This document shows positions 45,022 to 58,576 of a stretch of DNA of 64,000 nucleotides, in pieces. The notes under the pieces are model-generated. The model had not been told where the DNA came from. It made no database searches and was given only the letters and a program-made list of their open reading frames with translations. A program made the position numbers and the translations under genes. Source of the DNA: Zopfochytrium polystomum (taxonomy: Eukaryota > Chytridiomycota > Chytridiomycetes > Chytridiales > Chytridiaceae). The number at the start of each line of letters is the position of its first letter. Position 1 is the stretch's first letter. The stretch spans positions 62,001 through 126,000 of the forward strand of contig JAIVFJ010000061.1 of assembly GCA_025765615.1 (NCBI GenBank), given 5' to 3'.

Positions 45022-45132
45022 GGGGGATGGGGGACCTGTCCCATCCCTCAAGTGAATTATTGTTTCCAATACAATCATCACTCCTCTCAGTTCCTTGTCT
45101 GCCTTGTCCTGTCCTGCCCTGTTCCTGACATC

Positions 45133-45143
45133 ATAATTCACTT
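45133..45143 (+). other. Self-complementary primer-binding site
   Basis: ATAATTCACTT starts 2 nt after the 5' LTR and is the exact reverse complement of AAGTGAATTAT at 45050-45060. This matches the self-priming of Tf1-type elements, in which the first 11 nt of the RNA prime reverse transcription, and no tRNA 3' end match is evident. Confidence 0.7.
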
Positions 45144-45170
45144 CACCCTCTCCCACTACTCTCTGCCATC

Positions 45171-46094
45171 ATGTCTGACCCAAACAACACCTTCCCTGAT
45201 GCAACTGCCTTCCAAGCCTTGATGGACCAATTACAAGCCCTTTCAAGACAGACACACCAACTTCAAGAACAAGTCCTTCACCAGCAGCACCAGCTTCAAC
45301 AACAACTTCACCAACAAGAACATCAAGCTCTTCCCCTGCCTCAAGCCAACCAAGCAAGAGAGCCCAAGGTTCCCAGCCCTGACAAGTTCACTGGGCTGGC
45401 CAAAGACCTTAGGAACTTCATGGCCACTGTGGAGAATGTCATCCTTCTCCAACCTTCAAGATTTCCCAGTGAGCAAGTCAAGGTTCTTTTCACAAGCACC
45501 CTCCTGTCTGGTCAAGCTCAATCATGGTACAGATCTCTCCCAAGCACACCCACCACCCTGCAAGAGCTCTGGGAGGGGCTGGAAGCTACCTTTGGTGACC
45601 CCTACGCATCTTGGACAGCAAGATCCAAGCTCAAGCATATCAAGCAAGGAAAGCAATCTTGTGTGGCCTACACCAACCAATTCAAGCAACTAGCCAGAGA
45701 CTCTGGATACAATGATGCAGCTCTGATGGAGCTGTACCATGATGGTCTCCATGAGTCTATCCAAGACATGCTCTCCCAGTCTCTGCACATCCCTGAGACC
45801 TTGGAAGAGTACATTCTCCTTGCCATCAAGATTGACAACAGACTCTACTCCAAGAGGCTGAAGCAAAGACAAGTAGGAACTACATCAAGACCTACCCCAG
45901 TTCCTCAAGCTCTTACAGTTCCTGAACCCATGCAAGTGGATGCAGTTGAGACACTTCCTAAGGGTCCTCTGAGCCAAGAGGAGAAAACAAGGAGGGCCCA
46001 GCAGGGACTGTGTTTTTACTGTGGCTCCAAGGAGCATGCTGTCAAGGACTGCCCAAGGAAGAAGCACCCAAACTCCCAGGTCCAGGCTCACTGA
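45171..46094 (+). CDS. Chromovirus Gag
   Basis: 307 residues. The N-terminus has a Gln-rich coiled coil (residues 18-55), then the Ty3-type capsid domain (PDKFTGLAKDLRNFMATVE, QAQSWYRSLPSTPTTLQELW, SCVAYTNQFKQLARDSGY). Near the end there is one CCHC zinc knuckle, CFYCGSKEHAVKDC (C-x2-C-x4-H-x4-C), and a basic tail. The frame ends 85 nt past the start of the open pol frame. Pol lies in the -1 frame, so Gag-Pol should be made by frameshifting. It forms the particle that packages element RNA. Confidence 0.93.
   Translation: MSDPNNTFPDATAFQALMDQLQALSRQTHQLQEQVLHQQHQLQQQLHQQEHQALPLPQANQAREPKVPSPDKFTGLAKDLRNFMATVENVILLQPSRFPSEQVKVLFTSTLLSGQAQSWYRSLPSTPTTLQELWEGLEATFGDPYASWTARSKLKHIKQGKQSCVAYTNQFKQLARDSGYNDAALMELYHDGLHESIQDMLSQSLHIPETLEEYILLAIKIDNRLYSKRLKQRQVGTTSRPTPVPQALTVPEPMQVDAVETLPKGPLSQEEKTRRAQQGLCFYCGSKEHAVKDCPRKKHPNSQVQAH
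46067..46073 (+). other. Probable -1 ribosomal frameshift site
   Basis: CCCAAAC is read in the gag frame as C CCA AAC, fitting the X XXY YYZ rule. It sits in the gag/pol overlap, 19 nt before the gag stop codon (46092-46094), and slipping here enters the pol frame directly. No stimulatory structure was modelled. Confidence 0.55.
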
Positions 46095-49000
46095 GGGGCA
46101 ATTCCCTGGACCCTCCTCCAAGCTGGCCCTGTTTCATCACCACCACCAGCACCACAAACACCTCAGATTCCAAGCCCCACCAACTCACCATGGATGTCAA
46201 GATTCAACTCTCACCCAAGTCAACCATCACAACCAAGGCCCTTATAGACTCTGGATCATCCTGCAACATCATTGATGCCACCCTTGCCAAGTCTTGTGCC
46301 ATTCCTACGATCAAGAAATCCACACCCCTCAAGGTCCACTTTGCCAATCATGCTCTGTTCAAGGAAATCAGCCATGAAACCAAGCTAAACCTCCACATCC
46401 AAGACTTTCCACCATCCATGGTCAATCTGGAAGTATTGGATCTTGGCTCACCCACATTCTCTGTCATCCTGGGATTACCATGGCTGCAAGCCCAGAACCC
46501 TGCCATTGATTGGGTCACTGGTCAAGTCCAACCTCCACCAATTGGAACAGTCACCCAAAACTCAAGTCAAGCCCCCAAGTCTCATGCTCTCAAGCCCTTG
46601 ATTCAAGATTCACAGCCAGCCAAGACTCCAGTTCCACAGTTCACAGTTCACAGTCAAGATTCAAGTAGAGCTCATAGAGCTCACAGTCATGGCCATGACT
46701 CTTGTTCACAGAACCCACAGTCAAAGATTCAAGTACCACAGTTCACAGTCCACATTCAAGATTCAAGTTCCACAGCTCACAGTCTTTGCCAAGAACAGAA
46801 CTCTCAGTCAAAGATTCAAGAATCACAGTTCCCAGTCAAGAATTCAAGCCCCACTGCTGAGGAGCACAACAACCTGGACCCATCAGACCTTTTGCTGGCA
46901 TCCAAGCTACCAAAAGAATATCTCCCTTATGCTGATGTGTTTTCCAAGACCAAGGCAGACCTGCTACCAGCTCAGAGGCCTTATGACTGTGAAATCCCAC
47001 TCAAGGATGAAACTTGCAGCCCACCTTTCAAGCCACTGTACCACCTCTCTCCACCAGAAGCCAAGGCCCTCCAAGAATACATTGAAGAAATGCTGAACAA
47101 GGGATTCATCCAACCTTCCAAGTCACCAGCTGGAGCTCCCATCTTTTTTGTCAAGAAGAAGGATGGGGGACTGAGACCCTGTGTGGACTACAGAGATCTC
47201 AATGAGATGACAGTCAAGAACCGCTATCCACTGCCTCTCATCTCTGAATTACTGGACAAACTGAGCCATGCAAGGATATTTTCCAAGATTGACCTCAGAG
47301 GTGCCTACAATTTGGTCAGAATTAAGCCCCAGGATCAATGGAAGACTGCCTTCAGATGCAAATACGGTCACTTTGAGTACTTGGTTATGCCCTTTGGACT
47401 TACCAATGCTCCAGCTATTTTCCAAGGCATGATGAATGACATCTTCAGGGATATTCTGGACCTTTTTGTCATTGTCTACCTGGATGATATCCTGGTATTT
47501 TCATCTGACACTGCAAGCCATATGGGACATGTCAAGACTGTCTTGGAGAGACTCAGACAGCATCACCTCTATGCAAAGCTGGAGAAGTGTGAATTCCACA
47601 AGACCTCCATTGAGTTTTTGGGGTTCATTGTGTCTGACAAAGGGATCTCCATGGCACCAGACAAGATCCAAACTATTCTTGAATGGAAGGCTCCAAATTC
47701 CATCAAGGATGTTCAAAGCTTCCTTGGGTTTTGCAACTTCTACAGAACCTTCATTGCCAACTATTCTGCCATAGCCAAGCCTCTCACTGATCTCACCAAG
47801 AAGACCACCAAGTTTGAATGGACCCCAGCAGCAGAGCAAGCCTGGCTAGCTCTTAAGACAGCAACCACAAGTGCACCACTCCTTAAGCATGTGGATCCCT
47901 TGCTTCCCTTCACCTTGGAAACTGATGCCTCAGACTATGCCCTTGGCGCTGTTCTGTCCCAGCCAAGCTCTCAGGACCCCTCTGCTCCTCTGCATCCAGT
48001 GGCATATTACTCCAGGAAGCTGAACAGTGCTGAGTGTAACTACACAGTCCATGACAAGGAGTTGCTTGCAATTGTGGAAGCATTCAAATTCTGGAGACAC
48101 TACTTGGCTGGTTCTAAAGGCATCTCTGTCTATTCTGATCACAAGAACCTCACCTTCTTCAGGGCAAGGAGGTTGCTCAAGCAGAGGCATGCCAGGTGGG
48201 CTGAACTGCTCTCTGAGTATGACTTTAAGCTGTGCTATTCTCCTGGCCACCTTAACACTGTGGCTGATGCCCTGTCAAGAAGAACAGACCTTGCACCTGA
48301 AGGGGGAGATGGTTTCACCCCACCATCCAAGACACACCTTTCATTGCTTCCTGACAGTGTGTGGGCCCATGCTATTTCCAAGGACCCCAAGCCTCACAAG
48401 ATTCAAATCAGCCAAGAAGAGGAAAAACTTGAGATACTCAAGACAAGGCATGATGCAGCAACAGCTGGACACCCAGGAGAGCACAAGACATATGAGCTTG
48501 TTTCCAGAGACTTCTACTGGCCAGGCATGAGGAAGTACATCAAGAACTATGTCAGCAGCTGTGAAACCTGTCAAAGAAACAAATCCAGCAGACACAAACC
48601 CTATGGACTTCTGGAGCCCCTCCCAATTGCCATCAGCCCTTGGTCATCAATATCCATGGACTTCATTGTGAAACTGCCCCCATCCCATGGATTTGACTCT
48701 ATCCTTGTTGTCATCTGCAGAAGGACAAAGTTGGCCCATTTCATCCCCTGCACTGAGAATATAGATGCACAAGGAACAGCAGACCTGTTTTTGCAGCACA
48801 TATTCAGGCTCCATGGGCTGCCTCAGTCAATCGTCAGTGACAGAGGACCACAGTTCAGATCTCAATTTTGGAAAGCACTCACAGCAGCCCTTGGAATCAA
48901 GTCTCAACTGTCAACTGCTTATCACCCTCAGACTGATGGACAAACAGAAAGAACAAACCAGACTCTGGAGCAGTATTTGAGGTGCTATGTCAGCTATCAA

Positions 49001-49729
49001 CAGGATGATTGGCCCACCCTCCTTCCACTGGCAGAATTTGCTCTCAACAATTCTCTCCACTCAAGCACCCAGCTGTCTCCTTTCTTTGCAACCTATGGCT
49101 TCAATCCAAGAGGAGATCTTCTGGGACAAGAGACCCTATCCAATGTCCAAGCTCCTGCTGCGGCTTCACACTTACATAAGCTCAAGATCATCAACTCCTT
49201 CCTGGACTCCACCCTGAAGCAAGCCCAAGAAGATGCCTCAAGATTTGCCAACACTCACAGAATGGACCATGACCTTGCTGTGGGTCAGCAAGTTTGGCTT
49301 CTGAGGAAGAACTTGCAGACCAAAAGACCAAGTCCCAAGCTAGACAACCTCAAGTTGGGACCTTTCAAGATCTTGGAGCAAATCAATCCAGTCACCTTCA
49401 AGCTGGATCTCCCTGCATCCATGAAGATCCACCCAGTTTTCCATGTCAGCCTTTTAGAGAAGTTTGTGGCCAATTCCATTCCAGGCAGAGTTGTTCCTCC
49501 TCCTCCTCCAGTTGAGGTAGAAGGTGAAGAGGAATTTGAGGTTGAACAAATCTTGGATGCCAAGTGGTTTGGAAGAACACTCAAGTTCCTTGTTAAGTGG
49601 AAAGGTTACTCAGATGCTGACAACACCTGGGAGCCTGAGTCAAACCTCACTCACTGCCAAGACCTTCTGCTCGAGTTCAAGACCAGGTACCCCACCAAGT
49701 TGCAGAAGAGGCCTAAAAGGGGGAGATGA
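46073..49729 (+). CDS. Chromovirus Pol (PR-RT-RH-IN-chromodomain)
   Basis: About 1218 residues after frameshifting; the open frame itself begins at 46010. Aspartic protease: ALIDSGSSCNIIDA. Reverse transcriptase: VKKKDGGLRPCVDYRDLN, MPFGLTNAPAIFQ and the catalytic YLDDILVF. RNase H: TLETDASDYALGAVLSQ and YTVHDKELLAIVEA. Integrase zinc finger: HPGEHKTYELV with CETCQRNKS. Integrase core: SMDFIVKLPP (D), VSDRGPQFRSQFW (D), TDGQTERTNQTLEQYLR (E). The C-terminal chromodomain reads EVEQILDAKW ... LKFLVKWKGYSDADNTWEPE and probably guides insertion to marked chromatin. No stop or frameshift interrupts it. The stop (49727-49729) lies in the polypurine tract, next to the 3' LTR. Confidence 0.95.
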   Translation, partial: LPGPGSLRGNSLDPPPSWPCFITTTSTTNTSDSKPHQLTMDVKIQLSPKSTITTKALIDSGSSCNIIDATLAKSCAIPTIKKSTPLKVHFANHALFKEISHETKLNLHIQDFPPSMVNLEVLDLGSPTFSVILGLPWLQAQNPAIDWVTGQVQPPPIGTVTQNSSQAPKSHALKPLIQDSQPAKTPVPQFTVHSQDSSRAHRAHSHGHDSCSQNPQSKIQVPQFTVHIQDSSSTAHSLCQEQNSQSKIQESQFPVKNSSPTAEEHNNLDPSDLLLASKLPKEYLPYADVFSKTKADLLPAQRPYDCEIPLKDETCSPPFKPLYHLSPPEAKALQEYIEEMLNKGFIQPSKSPAGAPIFFVKKKDGGLRPCVDYRDLNEMTVKNRYPLPLISELLDKLSHARIFSKIDLRGAYNLVRIKPQDQWKTAFRCKYGHFEYLVMPFGLTNAPAIFQGMMNDIFRDILDLFVIVYLDDILVFSSDTASHMGHVKTVLERLRQHHLYAKLEKCEFHKTSIEFLGFIVSDKGISMAPDKIQTILEWKAPNSIKDVQSFLGFCNFYRTFIANYSAIAKPLTDLTKKTTKFEWTPAAEQAWLALKTATTSAPLLKHVDPLLPFTLETDASDYALGAVLSQPSSQDPSAPLHPVAYYSRKLNSAECNYTVHDKELLAIVEAFKFWRHYLAGSKGISVYSDHKNLTFFRARRLLKQRHARWAELLSEYDFKLCYSPGHLNTVADALSRRTDLAPEGGDGFTPPSKTHLSLLPDSVWAHAISKDPKPHKIQISQEEEKLEILKTRHDAATAGHPGEHKTYELVSRDFYWPGMRKYIKNYVSSCETCQRNKSSRHKPYGLLEPLPIAISPWSSISMDFIVKLPPSHGFDSILVVICRRTKLAHFIPCTENIDAQGTADLFLQHIFRLHGLPQSIVSDRGPQFRSQFWKALTAALGIKSQLSTAYHPQTDGQTERTNQTLEQYLRCYVSYQQDDWPTLLPLAEFALNNSLHSSTQLSPFFATYGFNPRGDLLGQETLSNVQAPAAASHLHKLKIINSFLDSTLKQAQEDASRFANTHRMDHDLAVGQQVWLLRKNLQTKRPSPKLDNLKLGPFKILEQINPVTFKLDLPASMKIHPVFHVSLLEKFVANSIPGRVVPPPPPVEVEGEEEFEVEQILDAKWFGRTLKFLVKWKGYSDADNTWEPESNLTHCQDLLLEFKTRYPTKLQKRPKRGR
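49715..49727 (+). other. Polypurine tract
   Basis: AAAAGGGGGAGA directly before the 3' LTR, overlapping the end of pol. It would prime plus-strand DNA synthesis. Confidence 0.75.
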
Positions 49730-51126: not shown

Positions 51127-54100
51127 TCAGAACTGAATCAAGCAACATACTCCATTTCCCAGAACAAGAATAGATTTTTTAAAAAGAAGGTGAATATTTC
51201 CCCTCAAGTCGATTGGAAGCCAACAAGAGGCCCCACTGTCAGTGTCTAAGAACCAAACTGCCTTGCTTGCAGTAACCAATGAGTGAAGGACTGTTCCAGA
51301 TTGCAGTTTCTCTCCAAAAATGTTTCTGCCGCAAAAATGGTGTTGCAGCACAAGTCTGTCTGATTCTGATGATTCCATCACCGCCTCACTCTCCAAAGTT
51401 GCAAGATTCCAGAGTTCTCTTTTGCCGTTGGTCTCATTTAAAACCAAGAATCGACCATCAGGAGAAAATGCTGAAGTGGTGCTGAAGGAGCAGTCTTTCA
51501 TAACGTGAACCAGTTGGCCTAATGATGTACTCCAAATGCATACTGTTGTGTCGGCACTTCCAGACACAACAAAGCTTTCATCAGGACTGAATGCAACAGA
51601 TTCAACCATGCTGATGTGTTTGGCCACTAGCTTGTGCAGCAGCTCGCCAGAGGTAGTACTCCAAATCTGGACAGTCATGTCCCAGCTTCCAGTAGCAATA
51701 AGCTGCCCACTTGGGCTGAAAGCTACAGACTTCACCCAGTCAGAGTATCCTTCCAGCCGGTGTTTCACTTCGCCAGTAGATGCATTCCATATCTGTACAG
51801 TCCTGTCAGCTCCTCCAGACGCAATCATCTGGCCATCAGGGCTAAACGCAACACAGATGACCCAATCAGTGTGACCTTCAAGATTTCGAATTTCCTGACC
51901 AGTGAGCGCATGCCAAGTCCTGACAGTCTTGTCCCAACTTCCAGAAACAATATATTGCCCATCAAGACTAAATGCAACAGTTTCAATCGTGTCCGAGTGT
52001 CCCTGGAGCTTGTGCAGCTCATCACCATTGATTGAATCCCAAATCCTCACGGTCCTATCCGTGCTTCCAGTCGCAACCAATTTTCCATCAGGACTGACAA
52101 CTGCAGACTTCACTTCACCAGAGTGTCCATCCAAGTCATGGAGGTCCTTGTCAGCAGATGCATTCCAAATCCGTACAGTCCTGTCGGAACTTCCAGACAC
52201 TACAAACTGGCCATCATGACTGAATGTCACAGAATGAACTCTATCAGAATGTCCAATAAGACTGTATTCAGGTGCTCCTGCACTTCCAGACACGGCTATC
52301 TCCATATTCGGGCTGAATGCTGCAAAATTTACTCTGCCAGAGTGTCCCTCTAGTACCTTTGCCTCCTTGCCATTGGACGCATTCCAAATCCTGATTGTCT
52401 TGTCCCAGCTTCCAGAAACAATAAATTGGCCATCTAGGCTGAATGAGACAGAGTTTACTCTGTCAGAGTGTCCTTGAAGTGTCTGCAGGTTGTCGCAAGT
52501 GACTGCATTCCAAATCCTGACAGTCTTGTCAGAACCTCCAGAGACAACAAACTGCCCATCAGGGCTGAATGCAACTGAAGTGACTTCATCAGAGTGCCCA
52601 CTCAGCAAGCGCTGCTGTTCACCTGTAGCCGCATTCCATATTCTCACGGTTGTGTCCACACTTCCAGATACAACAAACTTTCCATCAGGGCTAAATTTTG
52701 CAGAGTTGACCCAGCCTGAATGTCCCTTCAATTCACGCAGCTTCTCTCCGGAACGGGCATTCCAAATTATGACAAAACAATCGTTACTACTTGACACAAC
52801 CAGCTCAGCATTAGGACTGATTGCTGCAGAGTTAACCCTTTCAAGGTGACCAGTAAGCACACGAAGCTCCCGGCCAGTGGTAGCACTCCAAATCCGAACT
52901 GTTTTATCGGTACTTCCAGATACAATGTGCACTCCATCAGGGCTGAATGCTGCAGATGTGACTTCAAAAGTGTGGCCTTCCAGCTTGTGCAGCTCCTGCC
53001 CTGTGGATGCATTCCAAATCCTGATTGTCTTGTCAACACCTCCAGACACAACTAGGAGTCCATCTGGACTAAATGATGTGGAATTGACTCGATCAGTGTG
53101 CCCCTCCAGAACACTGATGCAAGAAGGCCAGAATCTGGGCTGTCCCTTTGCCAGGCGAGGAACCAAAATACTGGGTGGAACCTTTCCAGCAAAGTTCCTG
53201 TAAAACTCAGAGTTGCTGGGCGAGAAAGGGATGGCTGTAAAGTAAACCTGCAAAGCTGATAGATTCAGCGGAACAATGAACTTTTGCAGAACTCTTTTCA
53301 TGTCTTCCATTAGGCAATGCACACTGCTTCGCCCCTCTTCTTCCAAAGGAAGTATTTGTTGGAGCTTAGACATAGCAGGGATCACCATATCTAGACTATG
53401 AATTAAACTGCAGGCTTCCAAATAGTGATCACCGTGTGTTTGCAGAAGACTTTTCACATCAGAGAATAGACTCAACTCCATGGCAAAAGTTGATGATCTG
53501 TTATTGATAGCAGCAGGTTCAAGAAGAGAAGGTGATAGTTCACTTGAAGTGGGTGTCTCTTTCAAATATTGTGCATCATCTCTTCTATTTTTAAGTTGTG
53601 GTATCTTGGAACTCTTCAAACCAAGTGCAGAGATCCGCTTCACATTCACATTGGTCTCCTTCACATCATCCATATTGTTGTCAAGTGATCCAGCTTGAAC
53701 TGACGAATCAAAGCAGTGCTCCCAAAAGTGCTTGACTGCATACTTGATATGCTCAGGAATGTGCCGACCCACAATATCTTCGAAGTTGGGAATCTCAGAG
53801 TGAAAGTCTGACAATGGGAGGTTGCACATATTGAACTTCAAGTTCTTTTCCATTGCGCTGATACAGAGGCTTGCAAATCTCATATGGCATGCCTTTGGAT
53901 CGATCTGCAGCTGAGTAATCAAGCACCTTGATCGACTTGTGAGGAAGTCTTTCACAGATTTGTGAAAAAACCTGATCTTCATTGTGGATCCATCAAGCAC
54001 AAGAATGGGATCAAGGATGCGGATACATCTTTTCACATTTTCCTCGTTCCACATGTCAAGCAAAGACACAATTGCCGATGCAGTCAGCGGCTCATATGCA

Positions 54101-56497
54101 AGGCCAATGATTGACAAGACGATTTGAAGCAACATCTTCATCTTTTCCAGCACAACAGATTGAAGAATTCCGGAAAATATTCTGCTGTACATCTTATCAA
54201 TGCTTCCATCCATTTTGTCACCCTCCGGAAGGGCTTTGATCTCATCCAAAGTGATTGTCTCGGTTTCTGACTTTTTCAGGTAGTTGCAAGCAGTCACCAG
54301 CCAAACAAAAATCCCAGATGACTTTGAGACAAGAATCCTTGATCCTTCATCAACCACAGAGGATGGAGCGTATGTGGATCGAAGGAAGTGCTCGGTGAAA
54401 TTAATTTGGTCTTGCAAGTTTTCTTCGGCGGCAGGCTCAATCTCTTCAAATGGGATTTCCTCAAAAGCGTTCACAATGTCTTGTTCAGGGCGTCCTGTCA
54501 CTAGCATCTTCAGATTTGCAGGAAGCAATCTGTTCAGCTCCTTGAACACAGATAAGAATTCCTCCCTTTTGCGTATGGTTCCACATTCATCCAGGGCATC
54601 CACAACTAGCACAACAGGCACCAAAAGCAGATTGCTGTCAGCCAACTGGCTCAATGGCTGCACAATCAAAAGTTTCATCATTTCAAATATTGATCTGGAC
54701 AGAATATCTGGATTGCTTTGCTTGACTTGGAGGAGCATCTTTCCAAAATGAATACTAAACTTAGCGAGGCCAAACACCAGAGTTAAGACCAGGTTTCGTG
54801 CACTGCTCCGTCGCTCATCATCATGCTTGCAGAAGAACAAGCCACCAAGCATGCCCTGGGCTTGAAGCTCCCTGGATACCATGGCAGCCATCACAGACTT
54901 GCCAACTCCTGCTACACCTTTTAACCACATCACCCTGTTGGCACTGGCTGAAGAGGGATCGTCTGGAGACAGGAACTGGAACACTTTTTTGAGCAGCCAC
55001 TGTCGGGAGCCTGAGAGCACATTCTTCAGAAGATCTTGAGTCTCGGCATCCATCTGCTCGGAAAGAGGCGAGAGCCATTTTTCCAGTTCAGTCAAGCTGG
55101 ATCTGGAAAGTGATAAATCAAATCTTGATTCTGCAGTCTGACTCTGACGGTAAGCCCTGCGGCGACTGTGGACTTCTCTTGCTGCGGTTACAATCCTTTA
55201 ACGTCAAGTCAGAAGAGAACGGAGCAGATTTATTAAGCACTCACTTCAAAATATCAGTGTCTGGATTTGCGAATGGACCATTCAGGTCCAAAATTGTTTT
55301 GACAGTCTGAGACACCGTTCGACTGCCAGGACTCAAGGGATGCATGTGAACGTGGTTGGGAAACTTGTTGTAATCAAAGGTGTCGAATTTCTTGGTTACT
55401 AATGATCTCCTCCCATCGTCAATGGTGGCCATGACATCCCTGGAGAGAAGAACAGGCAAGATGTCATGGCCCATTTCTTCCTTCAACTGAAGAGCAAGCT
55501 CCCACTGGAAGTTTATTAGTTCACACGTAAATTGGAAAATAGACTTACTTCCAGCAGGCAATTATCTGGCTTTGTGTCAGCCTGAAGCATTCGCTCCATT
55601 CCTTTGTCAGAGCAAAGCAAAATGATGACAGAAGAGTGATATAGTCCAGACATGAAATTTATGTCCCACTTTTTTGCAAACGGGAGGCACTCCACATCCC
55701 AGAACGGATGCTGGCCGCTCAAACGGGATTCTTTGGGCAAGTACGATCCCCTGTAATCTTCAAGCAAAGCTAACTTAATTTTGTTGAAGAGGATTGTTGC
55801 CACTTGGGTCTCTGATGCCTTGCGGTAACTTTCAACTGAGTCAGTACTTTAACATTCTGGATGAAATGAAATGCACCTTATGAAGAAAGGATGTTTTTGA
55901 ACCTGGCCTTTACACTCCCAAGAATCTGGAATGAACCCAATCCACTCGTCTGTTGCACAAATTCCACACAAAAAATGTCAGTCACTGGTAGAAACAAATG
56001 ACCTGGCCTCACCCTTCTTCCCTCCCATACTCTCATCATGAGCGTCATCCTCTCCAGTAAATACGTTGGCAAATGCTTCAGAGGGAGTAGAACCTGCTTT
56101 GGGGGGCGGAGCTGAACCAATATGAGGGACTTGGGCACCGGAAGCAGCACCAGGAGCAACAGCTCGCGGCTCATCAGTAAGAACCTTTTTTAATGTGAAA
56201 CAATTTGTATTGTTAGTGTTGTGTGGACAGAGACATCGCCGGTTGAGTAACTGAAAATCTCACAATCCATGTATAATTCTGCGTAATCAGAGAAGGCAAG
56301 TCATCATCAACATCCAGCATGGTTTTCTTGCCACTGCTGGAGTCCAAGTATACAAGACTGATGGGAACGACAATATTCCACCGCCGCGCAACAAGCTTAA
56401 GGAGATTTTCGAGGCTGATTGAGTCATCGACTCGAATATTCCTGTGTACGTCGTTGTACTTGAAAGACAGAACTGGCCCTTTGGGTTGGTTGGCCAT
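51127..56497 (-). CDS. NLR-like receptor: PB1-TIR-NACHT-14xWD40
   Basis: Six exons (56497-56264, 56184-56013, 55949-55877, 55828-55549, 55504-55245, 55177-51127) sum to 1689 residues. Residues 1-78 resemble a PB1 domain (VLSFKYNDVHRNIRVDD, ISLVYLDSSSGKKTMLDVDD). Residues 155-320 are a TIR domain: HPFFISYRKASE at its start (split by an intron), YHSSVIILLCSDKGM, then DNCLLEWELALQL with a Glu placed as in NAD-cleaving TIRs, and DILPVLLSRD. NACHT ATPase: Walker A GVAGVGKS (427-434) and Walker B VVLVVDALDE (528-537). About residues 1028-1610 hold 14 WD40 repeats (GHSDRVNSVSFS, DKTIRIWNAS). Known TIR-NACHT proteins sense invaders and trigger cell death or NAD loss; that role is inferred here. Base composition is AT-richer than flanking genes. 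The exon 1/2 acceptor has a weak pyrimidine tract. Confidence 0.85.
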
Positions 56498-57147: not shown

Positions 57148-58576
57148 CTACATAATGGACTTCATGTTTTCTGAATGGGCGAGGGCGAGCTCCATGCAAC
57201 GGTCCAGAGCATCCTTTGAGAGGGCGGCCCCGCCCGGTTTGAACACGCCGCACATATCACCCGAATCTGCGTCGAACACAACAGTCACTTGACCAGAGAG
57301 GACAACCTCCTCTTCTTCAGTCGGATCGGCGAGGAGCTCCTCACTAGAAGGGAATTGGGAGGTGAATCATGCAACGCCTCTGCCATATCGTTGACGACTT
57401 ACTCTTCGATAATGCCAAACGTCGAAGATATCGGCTTCCCGTTCAGCTTGAGAGGGATGGTTCTTTCAGCCTCAACCTTGACCGTTGAGTCGAGCTCAGA
57501 GTAGGTGCTCTTTGGTAGTTTTACTGCCAAGCATCAAGCGGGGGAAACCGCATATCAGCTGATTTCAGCACGCAAAATATGGAAAAAGCATCGTCGCAAG
57601 GTACCTGAATTCAAGGCACTGACCAAGGCGGTCATTGCAACATCGACAGCGTTTCCCTCGTAATTGAGAAAGACAATGTCCGCGTAAATGACCCACACGG
57701 CTTCCCCGGGAGAAATGCATAACGCCTCAAGGTCCACTAGGTTGGTTCTGCATACCACGGGAAAATAGTGTCGAACGGACGGCGTTAATTTAACGGGGGG
57801 TGACCGAGTCACGCACGTACGTGCTGGCACTTACGCTGAGGTGATTTGGTGGATGAGCTCGCTGACGGATTGGGTGAATTCGCTCGGCGCCCCTGGCTTG
57901 AACTGCGAAGAGCATATTGGGGGAAAGTCCACATTCGGAACTGAACGAGCAGCGTAAGCATTATGTGTTTCCTATTGTCGAGGCAGATTGGTAAGGGAAA
58001 AGTGGTTTACCAAAGTATCCCGAGTCGGGTTTGTCTGGAAGTGGGACGGCCACTTCGGCCTTGATTCCGCAAAGAGCAGTCGTTTCGCCGAATCGGACCA
58101 ACGCTGATCCGTATGGAGACGACAGTGATCCTGCGGCCGGTGTTAGGACAAGGTGATGGTGGAAAGTTTCACGGGGATGTGAGGCGGCGACGCGCGTTGC
58201 AGAGGCACAAGTTATCATGGGCGCTGAATTCACTCAAGCACAAAGCGGGCACGCACGCGCAGGCATACGCACACCCATCACGCAGGTACCTTCTTGGTCT
58301 TTGCGAAGGACACACACACACTCTCTCTCTCCCCGTCCACCCACCCTGCGAGATCTTGACCTTGCGGAACGCTTCGAGCGTTCGGCCGTCCGGCCGCAGT
58401 CCCTTTGCGAGGAATCTGCGCATGTACTCTGCGGGATGCAGCTTTTGGAACGTGGATGCCTGTAGCGTGAAGGCGGCGGCCGCGGCGGCGGAGGCGGCGG
58501 CTGCATCTGCATCTGCATTGGCGGCGGCGGCGGCAGGCGCGGTCCTCGTCGGAGTTGCGGAGGACCTCGACGCCAT
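57148..58576 (-). CDS. RRP43: Exosome core subunit RRP43 (EXOSC8)
   Basis: Six exons (58576-58345, 58130-58011, 57940-57835, 57747-57605, 57523-57403, 57343-57148) give about 305 residues. An in-frame ATG at 58639 would add 21. After an Ala-rich leader, HPAEYMRRFLAKGLRPDGRT matches [20 protein letters not shown] of human EXOSC8. RNase PH fold blocks follow: GSALVRFGETTALCGIKAEV, VPNVDFPPICSSQFKPGAPS, LEALCISPGEAVWVIYADI, and FKPGGAALSKDALDRCMELA. Catalytic residues are absent, as expected for a structural subunit of the six-member ring. The exosome degrades and trims RNA 3'-5' in nucleus and cytoplasm. The start codon lies only 144 bp from that of the divergent neighbour. One border (58011/58012) is uncertain by one base. 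Confidence 0.9.

Follow-up and report, generated by a model that had tools for sequence, protein, structure and literature searches.

Zopfochytrium polystomum, an aquatic chytrid fungus (Chytridiomycota, Chytridiales), carries a gene whose predicted product joins a PB1-like domain, a TIR domain, a NACHT-type nucleoside triphosphatase (NTPase) and a C-terminal array of WD40 repeats. We analyzed this gene, which lies on contig C61 (JAIVFJ010000061.1) at positions 51127-56497 of a 64,000-nucleotide (nt) window, the whole stretch of DNA to which our coordinates refer, and found that it belongs to a large family instead of standing alone. By comparing sequences, we show the domain order, the scale of the family, the constraint on each domain and, in the pooled repeats, hypervariable positions in the WD40 sensor. 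The product is probably an intracellular receptor of the NOD-like receptor (NLR) type, in the class of signal transduction ATPases with numerous domains (STAND), encoded by a multigene family and acting as a TIR-type receptor for non-self with PB1 as a dock. A first-pass annotation of the window had proposed a candidate defense or cell-death gene of the NLR type in a unicellular opisthokont; this fits a chytrid fungus, and the domain order and motifs hold. The gene and its parts, all on the minus strand, are predicted as follows.

51127..56497, minus strand: whole gene, PB1-TIR-NACHT-WD40, 1695 amino acids (rebuilt model, Pfam domains, matching paralogue structure)
56264..56497, minus strand: exon 1, PB1 domain, amino acids 1-78 (Pfam, paralogues, profile, dN/dS)
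56013..56184, minus strand: exon 2, low-complexity linker (model; dN/dS 0.65)
55877..55949, minus strand: exon 3 (model)
55549..55828, minus strand: exon 4 (model)
55505-55548, minus strand: intron 4
55245..55504, minus strand: exon 5 (model)
55196-55244, minus strand: intron 5
51127..55195, minus strand: exon 6 (model)
55364..55893, minus strand: TIR domain, amino acids about 155-300, exons 3, 4 and 5 (TIR_2, 27.6 bits)
55549..55551, minus strand: codon of E253, motif DNCLLEWELAL, last codon of exon 4 (model; paralogue alignment)
54490..55011, minus strand: NACHT-type NTPase, NPHP3_N (PF24883, 93 bits)
54895-54918, minus strand: Walker A, GVAGVGKS, with Walker B (VVLVVDALDE) farther along the NTPase
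51370..53115, minus strand: WD40 repeats, 42-amino-acid unit, 13-14 copies (Pfam and repeat statistics)

Reassembling the six exons from the sequence gave a model with the same start and end as the hand-built one of the first-pass annotation, whose reading frame and domain order it reproduces. A single open frame without internal stops runs from the ATG at 56497 to the stop at 51127 across five GT-AG introns (79, 63, 48, 44 and 49 nt for introns 1-5) and encodes 1695 amino acids in the order PB1-TIR-NACHT(NPHP3_N)-WD40; the FFISYR strand of the TIR domain is created by the exon 3/4 splice. Pfam profile searches, which the earlier annotation had recommended as a check, were clear for WD40 and for the NTPase, whose best profile is NPHP3_N (PF24883, 93 bits; cut-off 24.8), whereas PB1, TIR_2 and NACHT itself (PF05729, 26.0 bits; cut-off 26.7) fell just under their cut-offs in this gene. 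The Walker A and B motifs, described as intact, are indeed present, and the gene has both a NACHT-type P-loop NTPase and a C-terminal repeat sensor, as a STAND receptor should. The WD40 count of 14 is reached by eye, with one truncated and one degenerate copy; Pfam sees 13 stretches.

Using the NACHT, TIR and PB1 parts of this gene as queries against the genome (80.16 Mb, 761 contigs), we obtained 101, 202 and 123 matches, respectively. From 252 NACHT candidates 99 were scored, two second pieces having been dropped from the 101 listed, and 150 of the 202 TIR matches entered the locus table, which thus understates TIR and gives rough counts. In at least 74 of the 99 NACHT loci, this gene included, NACHT is preceded by PB1 and TIR on its own strand and in the order seen here, with a median PB1-NACHT distance of 1079 nt over the listing as a whole; by the listed matches, 11 other loci have PB1 only, 5 have TIR only and 9 have neither. 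Two of the five loci that were read individually, L053 on C344 and L055 on C11, had been tallied as incomplete and proved to hold both modules, and these divergent members keep the order of the PB1-like and TIR parts. Among the 20 fetched paralogues (19 distinct), which stand nearest to this NACHT and are not a random sample, PB1, TIR and NACHT are collinear by tblastn in all 20. A custom spliced alignment places introns 2-5 in phases 1, 2, 0 and 2 in 19 of them, the exception being L034, and finds an ATG at the start in 18, the exceptions being L039 and L033, the latter carrying stops. Intron 1 is in phase 0 in 14 and in phase 2 in 6; an extra intron was called in L039, L040 and L041. The predicted protein reaches at least 1400 amino acids in 14 of the 20. 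Chance is excluded because the architecture is repeated across the genome, and a lone odd fusion or a splice artefact is ruled out by the collinear paralogues, the kept phases and purifying selection. To judge by their sequences, some of the loci are alleles or assembly duplicates, since L026 and L027 agree at 100% over 7924 nt, and L025 matches both at 97.6% identity, with flanks at 96-97%.

In this gene, PB1 (PF00564) scores 20.7 bits (E 4e-4; 18.2 bits in a second run; cut-off 23.6) and TIR_2 (PF13676) 27.6 bits (E 4.5e-6; cut-off 28). Both assignments become firmer because the relatives match the two profiles: all eight aligned members, this gene and seven paralogues, match PB1 (best E 4.1e-6) and TIR_2 (best E 4.6e-9), and PB1 exceeds the cut-off in paralogues, with 27.7 bits in L025 taken singly. 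Across the genome Pfam gives 46 PB1 matches, which include members of this family. The closest solved structure to the profile of the eight members is the PB1 of NBR1 in PDB (E 0.009). Searches of PDB by sequence with the TIR, as a single sequence or as the eight-member profile, found no match; RecF (E 0.12) and the NEDD4 WW domain (E 0.87), from single-TIR or single-PB1 searches, were taken as chance. Structure prediction was also recommended earlier. AlphaFold2 gave exon 1 alone a strand-strand-helix-strand-strand-helix topology that suits PB1, but at a predicted local distance difference test (pLDDT) of 57.9, a poor model, with which Foldseek found no significant match; the PB1 domains of MEKK3 and MAP2K5 appeared at ranks 2, 5, 9 and 10 with E above 0.7.

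Purifying selection acts on PB1, TIR and NACHT. Across 17 genes including this one (L027, L033, L034 and L039 were dropped), the median ratio of nonsynonymous to synonymous substitution rates (dN/dS) is lowest in NACHT (0.135), followed by TIR (0.17) and PB1 (0.30), and highest in the linker (0.65), with 117, 82 and 135 of 136 pairs used for PB1, TIR and NACHT, respectively. These low values make it very likely that the PB1 and TIR exons are translated. The P-loop reads GKS or GKT in all 17 genes. Glutamate E253 (DNCLLE followed by WELAL) is also kept in 17 of 17, this gene included, and DNxLLEWE was seen by eye in three deposited proteins, P0001 and P0128 of Nowakowskiella sp. JEL0407 and P0131 of Z. 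polystomum. Judged by TIR motifs, E253 would be the glutamate of helix C that cleaves nicotinamide adenine dinucleotide (NAD); the earlier claim of a glutamate at this place agrees with its conservation, the position being assigned from the motif. The OPCA region of PB1 (type I domains have an acidic OPCA motif, type II a conserved basic lysine) is partly kept in the 17 genes: D52 is found in all, an aspartate at the "GD" place in 15 (it is missing from L040 and from this gene, which reads GKK) and a DDD run in 8, this gene among them, while the beta-1 lysine (K13) occurs in this gene only. Because of this partial conservation and the lone K13, it is only a guess that the PB1 of the family is type I-like and that of this gene perhaps mixed. 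The earlier idea of a link between PB1 and p62/Bem1-like partners remains a suggestion, the acidic OPCA region being only partly kept.

The WD40 sensor was studied in a pool of 151 repeats from 16 proteins, all of them NLR proteins; L027 and insertion-bearing repeats were left out of the codon statistics. The most variable of the 42 positions are 17, 35, 19 and 37 (3.89, 3.64, 3.13 and 2.94 bits), and 31 of the 38 positions outside these four lie below 1 bit. Position 16, at 2.91 bits, was picked after looking, whereas the other four positions were tested against published ones. In PMC1805685, codons 7, 9, 25 and 27 of the Podospora HET-D/HET-E repeats are reported as strongly positively selected, flanking the conserved codons 8 and 26. 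By spacing, these would correspond to our positions 17, 19, 35 and 37, around V18 and D36. The ratio of nonsynonymous to synonymous differences (pN/pS) is 1.31 at the four positions (gene bootstrap 1.06-1.74) versus 0.36 at 37 framework positions, and 146 repeats hold 141 distinct four-position combinations.

By analogy with NLRs and TIR enzymes, the likely path in the Zopfochytrium receptor runs from sensing to NTPase assembly, TIR clustering and NAD+ cleavage: the WD40 sensor, with two propellers' worth of repeats, would use its variable residues to bind a protein that is non-self or modified self; binding would release the NACHT NTPase, which would oligomerize; the clustered TIR domains would cleave NAD+ at E253; and cell arrest or death would follow through NAD+ depletion or a nucleotide signal. 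PB1 would dock the complex to a PB1 partner or aid in building the oligomer, and it may let receptors share effectors, a role suggested by the existence of TIR-less PB1-NACHT copies. All of these steps go beyond the sequence, and we infer them. Parasites or viruses seem more likely as the main target than heterokaryon incompatibility, since routine hyphal fusion is not known in chytrids. Viruses are a possible target in that strain WB228 of Z. polystomum, whose total RNA has been sequenced, is listed in PMC7482067 among strains from which double-stranded RNA was purified after a virus screen.

Among the nearest described systems are the HNWD proteins of Podospora anserina (HET-E, HET-D and HET-R), which share the NACHT-WD40 core, internally similar repeats and, by spacing, the four variable positions (PMC1805685). 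A further likeness is a difference in WD40 repeat number between near-identical copies: L025 (C171) and L026 (C66), 97.6% identical, differ by a 542-nt WD40 stretch, and the shorter copy has a truncated frame. It is conceivable, if unlikely, that the Zopfochytrium genes are allorecognition receptors like HET-D/HET-E, acting when genetically different thalli or cells fuse; the 42-amino-acid unit, the high similarity of the repeats and the variable positions of the pooled family are as in Podospora. However, HNWD proteins have HET instead of TIR_2 and no PB1, with five Podospora paralogues (PMC12881547) versus the dozens found here, and Pfam on amino acids 1-340 of this gene and seven paralogues returned only TIR_2 and PB1 (E 0.01), with no match to HET (PF06985). 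According to PMC12881547, moreover, the majority of NLR genes in fungi do not serve allorecognition.

Other TIR receptors compare as follows. Plant TIR-NB-LRR receptors share the logic of TIR NADase signaling and differ in having NB-ARC and leucine-rich repeats (LRR) and no PB1. PMC9815663 and PMC10197012 report TIR as an N-terminal NLR domain in Chytridiomycota and in a small set of further fungi; the N-terminal TIR is common to those proteins and ours, and PB1 is absent from both texts. Since Crinkler, another domain of the ubiquitin clan, is reported at fungal NLR N termini (PMC9815663), a ubiquitin-like N terminus is as such not new. The NLRs of Nowakowskiella sp. JEL0407 (P0001 and P0127-P0130) and P0131 of Z. 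polystomum have TIR, NACHT and WD40 with extra modules before TIR. That these modules are the same PB1 is not supported: the N termini of P0001, P0127 and P0131 gave no Pfam PB1 match, and hhalign of chytrid NLR N-terminal modules against this PB1, a weak comparison with alignments of 1 to 4 sequences, gave a probability of at most 3.2%. The bacterial-looking P0143 has TIR_2, an NPHP3_N-type NTPase and WD40 with the four variable positions in common with our family, and no PB1 among its listed domains. P0136 of the chytrid Obelidium mucronatum is a TIR-NACHT protein with LRR domains among its listed Pfam domains; PMC4986451 reports no LRR in fungal NLRs.

The TIR domain might also be a scaffold devoid of enzyme activity, with PB1 as the true output and the receptor as an assembly platform, which we consider quite unlikely. 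In L051 (C9), PB1 is followed directly by NACHT with no TIR, and in L052 (C257) the TIR region is reduced to a 3' remnant, so that TIR has, on this evidence, been lost in some family members; in addition, in 6 of the 11 PB1-only loci, one of which (C144) has an incomplete NACHT match, PB1 and NACHT lie less than 400 nt apart. Such copies would suit a scaffold, but the constraint on TIR is stronger than that on PB1 (0.17 versus 0.30) and E253 is kept in all 17 genes.

Two deposited Z. polystomum proteins, P0124 (C344) and P0126 (C11), have the first Met of exon 6 as their start and lack PB1-TIR, although L053 and L055 carry PB1-like and TIR exons ahead of it. Models that start in this way can explain why amino acids 1-345, when searched against proteins (2789 candidates; lengths 932-2966; E up to 0.01), matched just one, from Nowakowskiella. 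They would also fit two adjacent genes, a PB1-TIR adaptor and a NACHT-WD40 receptor starting at that Met, but this is very improbable, given that 19 of the 20 paralogues have introns 2-5 in frame and in matching phases, that dN/dS is low on both sides of the exon joins, that P0131, P0001 and P0127 are deposited as single TIR-NACHT-WD40 proteins, with P0128 and P0130 likewise single by eye, and that exon 6 before its first Met (amino acids 341-387) is conserved as protein (dN/dS 0.22, 82% mean identity), which favors one protein.

Besides these deposited models, several observations weigh against a TIR-type non-self receptor with a PB1 dock. Taken from this gene alone, PB1 and TIR are suggestive, being below the Pfam cut-offs. 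In L053 the PB1-like piece matches nothing in Pfam at E 0.1, and in L051 and L055 it scores below the cut-off (18.3 bits for L055); reading L054 (C28) revealed neither PB1 nor TIR. Six of the 20 paralogues (L026, L027, L033, L034, L041 and L044) give proteins under 1400 amino acids. Both structure predictions are of poor quality, that of exon 1 and that of the Nowakowskiella relative P0128, whose AlphaFold2 model has a pLDDT of 50.3 overall and near 30 in its TIR. In the WD40 sensor, similar units with selected positions, as in HNWD, are found in the pooled repeats and not in this gene alone: its 10 codon-aligned repeats give a pN/pS of 0.64 at the four positions, which rank 5th, 6th, 8th and 9th in its 11 repeats. 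Lastly, the variable positions recur in NLRs of Nowakowskiella, of Dikarya and in the bacterial-looking protein; because other NLRs share them, they would denote a mode of action and not a family mark.

Further observations concern the surroundings of these genes and other TIR genes. In the window, two overlapping frames of a long terminal repeat retrotransposon lie directly downstream of the receptor gene (45129-49729, plus strand); by eye, one is gag-like with a zinc knuckle and the other is pol with reverse transcriptase, integrase and a chromodomain-like end. Upstream, exons at 57148-58465 (minus strand) resemble by eye an RNase PH-type exosome subunit. A family NLR and a mitochondrial-type HSP70 gene, about 13-15 kb apart, form a pair on C66, C171, C191 and C285, which suggests uncollapsed haplotypes or a segmental duplication. 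The mitochondrial HSP70 of this genome (L045) shares 99% identity with P0002 of Z. polystomum; next in the ranking come a bird record (71% over 79% of the query) and then chytrids, led by Cladochytrium tenue at 88%. At the ends of C20, C42 and C63, TTAGGG repeats (among 100 of 261 matches listed) are separated by about 11-29 kb from NACHT loci of the family, and at the end of C76 by about 11 kb from a PB1 exon, a hint of subtelomeric placement. At L021 (C415), a TIR_2 match precedes a frame that resembles a protein kinase, the two perhaps forming a TIR-kinase, and 23 TIR_2 places in the genome score at least 66 bits and may form a second TIR family (of these, only L021 was read). A second set of TIR and NACHT matches, with frames near 405 amino acids, is found on C18, C57, C67, C98, C428 and C436.

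The first-pass annotation knew of no described PB1-TIR-NACHT-WD40 order, and we too found the PB1-TIR front end nowhere in the open-licence literature searched. There, "PB1 domain", NACHT, TIR and WD40 did not occur together, a search for PB1 NLRs returned none, the PB1 papers being about autophagy and p62, and the word PB1 is absent from the NLR texts PMC9815663, PMC12258605, PMC10197012 and PMC12881547. TIR NLRs and NACHT-WD40 NLRs are known; what is notable is the PB1 front end, the scale and the lineage. Somewhat short of probable, and put forward tentatively, is a broader picture in which the chytrid has about a hundred NLR loci, all variations on a hitherto undescribed receptor of the order PB1-TIR-NACHT-WD40 and equipped with diversifying sensors of the HET-D/E type, outside hyphal-fusion allorecognition, where PB1 would be a family-wide plug joining TIR-less sensors with effector-bearing receptors.

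In PMC4986451, chytrids yielded no NLRs, and NLRs are tied to filamentous multicellular fungi; PMC12258605 gives NLR numbers from one upwards across Chytridiomycota species. If a zoosporic chytrid has dozens of TIR receptors whose sensor positions are under selection, the link between NLRs and multicellularity would be challenged. Our analysis also indicates that deposited gene models can hide PB1-TIR N termini. It raises the questions of whether parasite recognition came before allorecognition in fungi and of what PB1 adds to a TIR receptor, and the family may help to show how simple fungi distinguish self from non-self.

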